Shown in pieces: positions 14,234-16,057 of a stretch of DNA of 32,316 nucleotides (positions are counted from its first letter, which is position 1; the number at the start of each line of letters is the position of its first letter). This stretch comes from Bdellovibrionales bacterium (GTDB lineage Bacteria; Bdellovibrionota; Bdellovibrionia; Bdellovibrionales; JAGQZY01), in assembly GCA_020435205.1 (NCBI GenBank), contig JAGQZY010000027.1:1-32316 (forward strand), written 5' to 3'. The notes under the pieces were generated by a model that searched no databases, was not told the origin of the DNA, and saw nothing but the letters and a program-made list of their open reading frames with translations. The translations under genes and the position numbers were made by a program.

Positions 14234-14262
14234 TTGCTGCAAGCTGTAAAATTCGCTAGAAT
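14234..14262 (+). promoter_or_regulatory. Sigma-70-like promoter of mltD
   Basis: TTGCTG (14234-14239), a 17-nt spacer and TAGAAT (14257-14262) lie 20 nt before the mltD ATG at 14282. It falls in the 189-bp gap after slt, so mltD is probably transcribed separately. Confidence 0.55.
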
Positions 14263-14281
14263 AGAGGGATTGGAGGGTTCT

Positions 14282-15637
14282 ATGAGGGTTATTAGTCTAC
14301 TGAGCGTTGCTCTCATTTTTGTGTCTTGTTCCCATCGTGCGGAAAAGTCGGTGAGTAACCATAGTTTCATTCCTGGTGTCACTCCCATTGAGCCTTTGCA
14401 AAGTTTGGGGGCTGAAAATACTCAAGCTCAGCCTCAAGGCCATCACGGCGACTTGAATGATAATGAAACGGACATGCAAAACCTCCCCTCGGAGCTGAAC
14501 GAGAGGGTCACCCAGTGGCTTGAATACTTTCAGGGCCGTGGTCGACCACATATGGAGAGATACCTGTCGCGCTCCTCTCGTTATTTACCTAAGATGAAAG
14601 AGATCATGAACAAGCATGGTCTTCCTGAAGACTTGGTCTACATTGCACTTATTGAATCCGGTTTTAATTCAAAAGCTCTTAGTCGAGCCCGTGCTGTTGG
14701 CTACTGGCAATTCATTGGTGGCACCGGGCGCCGCTATGGTTTGACTCAAAACTACTATGTGGATGAAAGAAGAGACTTTATTGATTCCACAGAAGCTGCG
14801 GCCAAATATTTAAAAGCTCTCTATAATCTTTTCGGCTCTTGGTATTTAGCCATTGCTTCATACAATGTGGGTGAGAATCGGGTAAAAAATCTGGTCATGA
14901 AGTATTACACCCGCAACTTTTGGGAGTTAGCGCAAAAAGGGCGTTTGCCTCACGAAACTACCAACTATGTTCCAAAGTTTCTAGCGGCACGCTTGATTGC
15001 AAAGCACCCAGAAAAATATGGCTTTGATAACGTGGTTTATGAACCGCCCCTGGATTTTAAAGAAGTTGCCCTAGAAAAGGGAATCCACCTCGATAAATTT
15101 GCTAAGCACATTGGCGTGAGTTTGCCTGTTCTTAAGGGGCTCAATCCGGCTTACAAACGGGGAGTGATCCCGAAGCGAGAGGGTGGAGCAATTGTGCGTG
15201 TGCCCACTAGCATTGAAGATAAAGATATCCTTGTGGCTCTACAAAAAAGTTACTCTAACGCTGAAATGCATGTGATCGCTGCGGGAGCAGGGCATAACTA
15301 CCGCATTCAGCGTGGGGACACTCTTAGCCATATTGCCCAGAAGTTTGGAACGAGTATTGCGGCCCTTCGTGAGGCCAATGATCTTGGTCGGCGTAGCACC
15401 CTCTATCCGGGAAAAAAGTTAATCATTCCCACTGGCAGAAGAGTAGCATCTTCCAGCAAAACTAAAATTGTGACTAAGGCTGGTGAACGCACCTACAAAG
15501 TGCGCAGGGGGGATAACCTCTACACGATCGCTAAGCGCTTTGGCGTATCGATTGCGCAAATTAAAAAGCGAAATAAACTTGGGCGTAAATCTTTACTCAG
15601 TATCGGAAAAGTTTTAGTAATCCCCAGCCGCACATAA
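14282..15637 (+). CDS. mltD: MltD-like membrane-bound lytic transglycosylase, lipoprotein with two LysM domains
   Basis: The 451-residue protein starts with a lipoprotein signal (MRVISLLSVALIFVSC, lipid-bearing Cys16). The SLT domain spans about 100-240, with catalytic Glu125 in LIESGFN, then AVGYWQFIGGTGRRYGL and ASYNVGENRV. Two LysM domains (about 338-383 and 404-450), starting YRIQRGDTLS and YKVRRGDNLY, bind glycan strands. This is the MltD architecture. ATG 14282 has GGAGG 5 nt upstream and yields a proper lipobox, unlike the longer frame from 14234, which overlaps the promoter. Confidence 0.92.
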   Translation: MRVISLLSVALIFVSCSHRAEKSVSNHSFIPGVTPIEPLQSLGAENTQAQPQGHHGDLNDNETDMQNLPSELNERVTQWLEYFQGRGRPHMERYLSRSSRYLPKMKEIMNKHGLPEDLVYIALIESGFNSKALSRARAVGYWQFIGGTGRRYGLTQNYYVDERRDFIDSTEAAAKYLKALYNLFGSWYLAIASYNVGENRVKNLVMKYYTRNFWELAQKGRLPHETTNYVPKFLAARLIAKHPEKYGFDNVVYEPPLDFKEVALEKGIHLDKFAKHIGVSLPVLKGLNPAYKRGVIPKREGGAIVRVPTSIEDKDILVALQKSYSNAEMHVIAAGAGHNYRIQRGDTLSHIAQKFGTSIAALREANDLGRRSTLYPGKKLIIPTGRRVASSSKTKIVTKAGERTYKVRRGDNLYTIAKRFGVSIAQIKKRNKLGRKSLLSIGKVLVIPSRT

Positions 15638-15732: not shown

Positions 15733-15759
15733 TAAAAGTTTTTCAAAGGACAGAAATAA
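15733..15759 (+). promoter_or_regulatory. Weak sigma-28-like candidate upstream of the riboswitch RNA
   Basis: TAAAAGTT (15733-15740), 11 nt and AGAAATAA (15752-15759) have the FliA spacing, but the -10 half matches GCCGATAA at only the last four positions. The rest of 15638-15824 holds a short hairpin (15643-15661), T-rich tracts and a small inverted repeat ACACT-GAA-AGTGT (15803-15815). No better promoter was found. Confidence 0.25.
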
Positions 15760-15824
15760 GACACTTTGAATTTTTTTTTAGGCGTTGCGACAAAGGTCGA
15801 GTACACTGAAAGTGTTCAATGATG

Positions 15825-16011
15825 CTTTCTTTGCCAAAGGCAACTCCAGGGAAACTTGGATACGCAAAGCTAAAGGGACTAAGGCACAGGATGCTAAGTC
15901 AGCCAGCTACCAAAGAGAGAGACCGATTTGGTGAGGTAAGGAGGTAATCATGGACATCACGCCCATTTTTCGCCCGCCTTACCCCCCCCCAAAGGCGGGC
16001 TTCTTTTTTTT
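15825..16011 (+). ncRNA. Orphan c-di-GMP-I (GEMM-I) riboswitch RNA with its own terminator, merRNA-like
   Basis: The aptamer spans 15825-15919. P1 pairs CTTTCTTTG (15825-15833) with CAAAGAGAG (15911-15919). Next come the conserved GGCAAC, a hairpin CCAGG-GAAA-CTTGG with a GNRA loop, the hallmark ACGCAAAGC (15862-15870), and a second arm GACT...AGTC (15877-15900) containing CTAAGG, a tetraloop-receptor-like sequence. It ends in AGCCAGCTACC before P1 closes. This matches the GEMM-I fold that binds cyclic di-GMP. It is followed by an alternative helix region, a perfect ribosome site AAGGAGGT (15939-15946), a 23-codon frame, and a strong terminator (15972-16011) inside that frame. No real gene follows on this strand; mrp converges from the right. 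Bdellovibrio is known to make a very abundant c-di-GMP riboswitch RNA (merRNA) in attack phase, and this looks like a relative. Exact 5' end unknown. Confidence 0.85.
15972..16011 (+). terminator. Strong intrinsic terminator of the riboswitch RNA
   Basis: GCCCGCC (15972-15978) pairs with GGCGGGC (15994-16000) across a 15-nt C-rich loop with nine consecutive C. A T-rich tail TTCTTTTTTTT (16001-16011) follows. It also separates this RNA from the converging mrp gene. Confidence 0.9.
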
Positions 16012-16057
16012 ACAATACTGAATCCCGAATACAGTTAACCGTATACACAATTCCGGT

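Follow-up and report, generated by a model that had tools for sequence, protein, structure and literature searches.

The RNA encoded between mltD and mrp in the window, that is, in the whole stretch of 32,316 nucleotides of Bdellovibrionales DNA analysed here, is a short, leaderless and inverted variant of the known merRNA, and we are highly confident that it is a stand-alone merRNA ortholog. The explanation that we favour, and that we regard as fairly probable as a whole, is that of an independent RNA gene, related to Bdellovibrio merRNA as a short ortholog, the product of which acts as a free c-di-GMP-binding RNA. Transcription would start at a promoter belonging to the gene, directly before the aptamer, and stop at the gene's own terminator. 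The product would be an RNA of about 200 nt, in the body of which a long helix, P0, closes a single GEMM-I aptamer. The free RNA would bind c-di-GMP, either to buffer or store the signal or to act as an RNA gated by its ligand, with no neighbouring gene under its control. The promoter, the ligand binding, the abundance and the buffering role are the parts of this scheme that we infer, and a main role as a buffer or sponge for c-di-GMP is put forward only tentatively. The elements concerned are:

14234-15637, forward strand: mltD-like lytic transglycosylase gene (SLT and LysM domain matches), the upstream codirectional neighbour
15756-15807, forward strand: putative promoter region, with a ATAAGACACT block at 15756-15765 and a -10-like TACACT at 15802-15807, conserved in the same-genus relative L031; the sequence further upstream is not
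15812-15835, forward strand: 5' strand of the P0 helix (MFE fold, z -3.3; the helix also occurs in other families)
15829-15914, forward strand: c-di-GMP-I (GEMM-I) riboswitch aptamer (cmscan, RF01051)
15908-15933, forward strand: predicted hairpin ACCAAA...UUUGGU, taking up the 3' strand of the aptamer's P1 stem once P0 is formed
15935-15957, forward strand: 3' strand of the P0 helix, with AAGGAGG (15938-15944) and AUG (15950-15952), both predicted to be paired
15950-16021, forward strand: small ORF MDITPIFRPPYPPPKAGFFFLQY with a perfect SD, passing through the terminator to a stop codon beyond the T-run; coding not supported
15972-16010, forward strand: intrinsic terminator with a 9-bp stem, an 11-nt loop and a T-run (-17.2 kcal/mol), strongly conserved in L031
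16058-16855, reverse strand: mrp/ApbC-type (NUBPL/ApbC) Fe-S carrier ATPase gene, the convergent neighbour

The original prediction of a c-di-GMP-I aptamer followed by a strong terminator is borne out, and its anatomy and coordinates prove correct within a few bases. The RF01051 covariance search returns a match at 15829-15914 on the forward strand that spans the full model (1-87) with 69.1 bits (E 9.4e-12), as compared to a gathering score of 35 bits, and this is the sole copy in the 2.83 Mb genome, which also holds five GGDEF matches. The aptamer retains its GAAA-capped stem, ACGCAAAGC and the conserved ends. Among the aptamers listed for the compared loci, the GGC core and the G at the ligand-specifying position are kept, and the AAAGGC element of the window keeps this G. 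A G at that core position characterises the c-di-GMP type rather than the cGAMP type, and on the strength of the conserved core and of the G of the AAAGGC element, the ligand is very probably c-di-GMP.

The terminator (GCCCGCCUU, 11 nt, AAGGCGGGC) occupies about 15972-16001, with a T-run reaching to about 16010. A simple scan of the window for sigma-70 consensus promoters and for terminators found nothing, and it overlooked this terminator because the loop is longer than 8 nt. On the 5' side, the -10-like element reads TACACT in the window and TATACT in L031, and the RNA probably has a promoter of its own just upstream of the aptamer. Counted from the probable -10 at 15802-15807, the transcript length suggested is about 195-200 nt. 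A dyad TTCAAAG...CTTTGAA, at 15743-15770, lies 5' of the putative promoter and could be an operator.

Both flanks are as had been predicted, the RNA being placed between mltD and mrp, with mrp, the next gene, on the opposite strand. What follows the aptamer is thus a terminator and then a convergent gene, and no codirectional downstream gene is under its cis control. Elsewhere in the window, a tRNA gene is found at 1131-1203 on the reverse strand (Rfam RF00005, 65.4 bits). The comparison of synteny with merRNA shows that the mrp/mltD neighbourhood is common to the window, to B. bacteriovorus HD100 and to most of the order. In HD100, the sole RF01051 match, at 1,073,868-1,073,951 on the minus strand, is consistent with the published coordinates of merRNA and adjoins mrp, as in the window. 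The accessible text of the merRNA paper gives an RNA of 445 nt at 1,073,741-1,074,185 on the minus strand, raised about 5000-fold during attack phase, and describes it as non-coding, without a conserved downstream ORF and without conservation beyond the Bdellovibrio lineage (PMC3627812).

RF01051 is found in 89 of the 141 genomes of the order and in 80 of the 192 sampled genomes of the phylum, exactly one copy each. The commonest layout in the order is mrp(+) - RNA(+) - mltD(-), sometimes with other genes intervening, and the mrp/RNA/mltD order is seen in families f1, f2, f3, f27 and f28 (labels from our genome searches; the window belongs to f1 and HD100 to f2). A terminator follows at 84 of the 89 loci of the order (f1 5/5, f2 56/59, f3 13/15, f28 8/8, f7 1/1, f27 1/1), counted when lying at most 230 nt after the aptamer, several of the misses being contig ends. 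The next gene is convergent at 61 of the 83 scorable loci and codirectional at the other 22, and no family is common to these 22 codirectional genes. As the downstream genes share no family, there is no conserved cis target, and this candidate was rejected. Genomes of the order that have no RF01051 match also carry GGDEF proteins and CsrA, so that the RNA appears dispensable in some lineages, and the presence of neither protein separates the genomes that have the RNA from those that do not. Outside the order, in f13, f17 and f19, another single-copy GEMM-I arrangement is seen (including loci L069, L071, L072, L074, L075, L076 and L078): the aptamer is followed by a conserved hairpin AAAGGGGGGUCC...GGACCCCCUCUUC, a terminator and then, in several but not all cases, a same-strand queE, the product of which was confirmed by NCBIfam for two loci of this type.

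The orientation of the RNA differs even within the genus of the window. In L031 (contig JAUHWH010000009.1, a Bdellovibrionia MAG), it is codirectional with mrp and points to mltD, whereas in the window it is codirectional with mltD and points to mrp. It is reversed relative to mrp in L156 and L066 as well, and relative to mltD in L117. As the orientation varies with respect to both genes, the RNA is tied to neither and serves no fixed neighbour. The alignment of the window with L031 is conserved from ATAAGACACT (15756) to the T-run of the terminator, with diverged flanks, and its simplest reading is that a self-contained unit, 15756-16010, has been inverted whole. The single copy, the frequency of terminators and of convergent next genes, and the inversion as a block all agree with the stand-alone RNA akin to merRNA that had been proposed from the window.

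The helix closing the aptamer is part of this unit. It is predicted to comprise 21 bp in the window, where the fold of 15811-15962 has a z-score of -3.3 and none of 200 shuffled sequences folds as well. At the same place in other families, the aptamer is flanked by pyrimidines immediately on its 5' side and by a run of purines on its 3' side, with the pairings CCUUCC:GGAAGG in HD100, UACUUCC:GGAAGUA in genomes like G005, and CCUCUCU:AGAGAGG in L115. As about half of the flank-shuffled controls also form a helix of at least 5 bp, its occurrence in a single sequence counts for little, and the claim is carried by a swap test. At the 28 loci outside f2, own pairs give -18.1 and deranged pairs -15.1 (p = 0.0002), and f3 alone gives p = 0.0002; covariation is not significant within f2 alone (p = 0.21), within f28 alone or within f1, f7 and f27 taken alone together. 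P0 thus covaries across families outside the Bdellovibrionaceae. In the predicted fold of the window, forcing P1 costs 7.6 kcal/mol without ligand, so that the two helices P0 and P1 may represent alternative states, and a form able to bind may depend on co-transcriptional folding or on the ligand itself.

One alternative is that merRNA is a dual-function RNA, of which the family ancestrally encodes a micro-peptide too, the window lineage having kept the RNA core only; in the relatives, the peptide as well as the aptamer would then belong to the function. We consider this a plausible alternative, though we lean against it. It draws on a micro-ORF with its own SD, sORF1, located 110-260 nt 5' of the aptamer in HD100 (L040), where it lies inside the transcript as mapped in the published account, and at about 60 other loci. 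sORF1 has 9-19 residues and typically ends in DPPPK/E or EPPK; its peptide is MRTHEHHDDELK in HD100, MKNRIHDHHDEPPK in related Bdellovibrio, and MAKRPKDWRLDPPPK, MKVNPMEWRRDPPPE, MPSRSIRISDPPPE and MAKVKIFRLDPPPE in f3, f28 and f7. In these three families, the synonymous fraction of single-base codon differences is 0.85, against 0.29 expected, and it is still 0.75, against 0.27, when the last codons, which were used to pick the ORFs, are omitted. In f2, it reaches 60%, against 12% expected, and it stays near or below expectation in the other frames of the region. Related sequences enter these pairwise counts as if they were independent, which inflates the sample size without affecting the direction. 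Of 82 leaders, 55 contain an SD-preceded ORF bearing the motif, and the 820 shuffled controls yielded not one. A search of nine genomes for the DPPP[KE]-stop pattern gave five matches, every one of them within a merRNA leader. Strong purifying selection on sORF1 in most relatives is what these figures suggest.

A second micro-ORF, sORF2, is found in f2 (Bdellovibrionaceae), 35-80 nt 3' of the aptamer. It encodes MEG...DWFHSP peptides of mostly 14-22 residues, starts in or beside the P0 helix and, for instance in L040, stops against the terminator stem. Its frame is kept in 30 of 32 distinct variants with seven in-frame lengths, about 11 being expected by chance. Candidate merRNA micro-peptides are MRTHEHHDDELK (sORF1, HD100) and MEGTNTYKDWFHSP. 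One leader (L066, G188:C25:77393-77499) has two DPPPE-stop motifs and a further ORF, MKLHSKQWNLFPPPI, apparently as tandem micro-ORFs. Leaders of f2, f3 and f28 also carry, about 30-50 nt 5' of the aptamer, a conserved SD-like AAAGGAGG that in most genomes precedes no ORF; UUCCUA often comes after it. The accessible text of the 2013 merRNA paper makes no mention of either micro-ORF (PMC3627812). As most members of the family carry conserved small ORFs, the 'non-coding' label needs revising for the family.

Translation of the micro-ORFs is nevertheless putative. Moreover, the window has no sORF1, nor the long leader with a micro-ORF, which is not part of the published definition of merRNA, and the DPPP[KE]-stop pattern is absent from all four f1 genomes searched, its own included, so that this peptide cannot be what the window copy is for. 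The window lineage looks like a stripped-down core RNA. That merRNA would be an ancient, order-wide dual-function RNA gene, combining a free c-di-GMP aptamer with the translation of one or two micro-peptides (about 9-22 residues), and that the window lineage, which has no leader peptide, kept the RNA, seems to us to fall just short of an even chance. If true, the RNA and peptide functions are separable, as shown by the window lineage.

Another alternative is that the RNA is a cis riboswitch after all: by favouring P1, c-di-GMP would release the SD (15938-15944) from its pairing in P0 and so allow translation of the ORF that begins at 15950, or the effect would have the opposite sign. The SD and start (AAGGAGGT-AATC-ATG, 15938-15952) combine a perfect AAGGAGG with a correct AUG spacing, are retained in L031 and L117, and are predicted to be buried in P0 in a way that looks like a translational expression platform; at the matching place, the Bdellovibrionaceae have the frame-conserved sORF2. 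In the genus of the window, however, the ORF has no stop inside the transcript and its differences between the window and L031 are mostly nonsynonymous, for which reasons it was rejected as coding. The conservation of the SD and AUG is accounted for by their pairing in P0, and in f3 and f28 the purine run persists without a start codon behind it. We therefore hold this alternative to be unlikely.

Still less probable is a CsrA sponge, i.e. an sRNA that would display GGA motifs and be switched by c-di-GMP. All 20 genomes tested, including that of the window, have csrA, and several GGA motifs are present, some of them in predicted loops of the relatives. This candidate was rejected, since csrA occurs just as regularly where the RNA is missing and its distribution does not track the RNA, and since the conserved purines are base-paired within P0 and not displayed in a loop. 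Least probable of all is a transcription switch in which GGUAAGGAGG, once released by P0, would pair with CCGCCUUACC as an antiterminator, the read-through being antisense to the 3' end of mrp: the alternative pairing is possible in the window and mrp ends about 48 bases past the T-run on the other strand, but regulated antitermination was rejected, as the 3' module of multi-locus families pairs with the terminator arm no better, on average, than shuffled sequences do, and the convergent gene in relatives is mostly mltD or another gene, not mrp.

The stand-alone, c-di-GMP-binding RNA remains the reading that we favour for the window. A free riboswitch forming an abundant store of second messenger was, according to the accessible text, a proposal from one species (PMC3627812), and the follow-up on merRNA function that we found in the literature consists of a mention of its down-regulation in stator mutants (PMC11323537). 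An RNA that is order-wide, single-copy and free of its neighbours in orientation points to a general feature of Bdellovibrio-like bacteria, including model predators. What is new to the specialist is that the RNA gene extends across the order and, in most lineages, comes with conserved micro-peptides. The leader micro-peptides would be a concrete and testable second function, phenotypes of merRNA deletions must separate the RNA from the peptide, and the leaderless form of the window offers a natural comparison.

The RNA of the window can be compared to three known systems. It shares with RF01051 riboswitches the full aptamer, the consensus core and the G at the ligand-specifying position; the usual members lie in a 5' UTR and control the downstream gene, whereas the window RNA has no such gene. 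Listeria SreA and the B12-riboswitch sRNAs are riboswitch-containing, trans-acting sRNAs, and the window RNA resembles them in having its aptamer inside an RNA that would act apart from a cis gene. They differ from the window RNA in that they arise from or beside regulated genes and have known targets. The closest system is HD100 merRNA, which likewise has one GEMM-I aptamer and its own terminator, lies beside mrp in a single copy, and has no conserved downstream gene. The two RNAs differ in length (445 nt in HD100, about 200 nt predicted in the window), in the 5' leader of about 234 nt holding sORF1 and the 3' sORF2 of the HD100 RNA, of which the window RNA has no sORF1, and in the orientation relative to mrp, which is reversed in the window.
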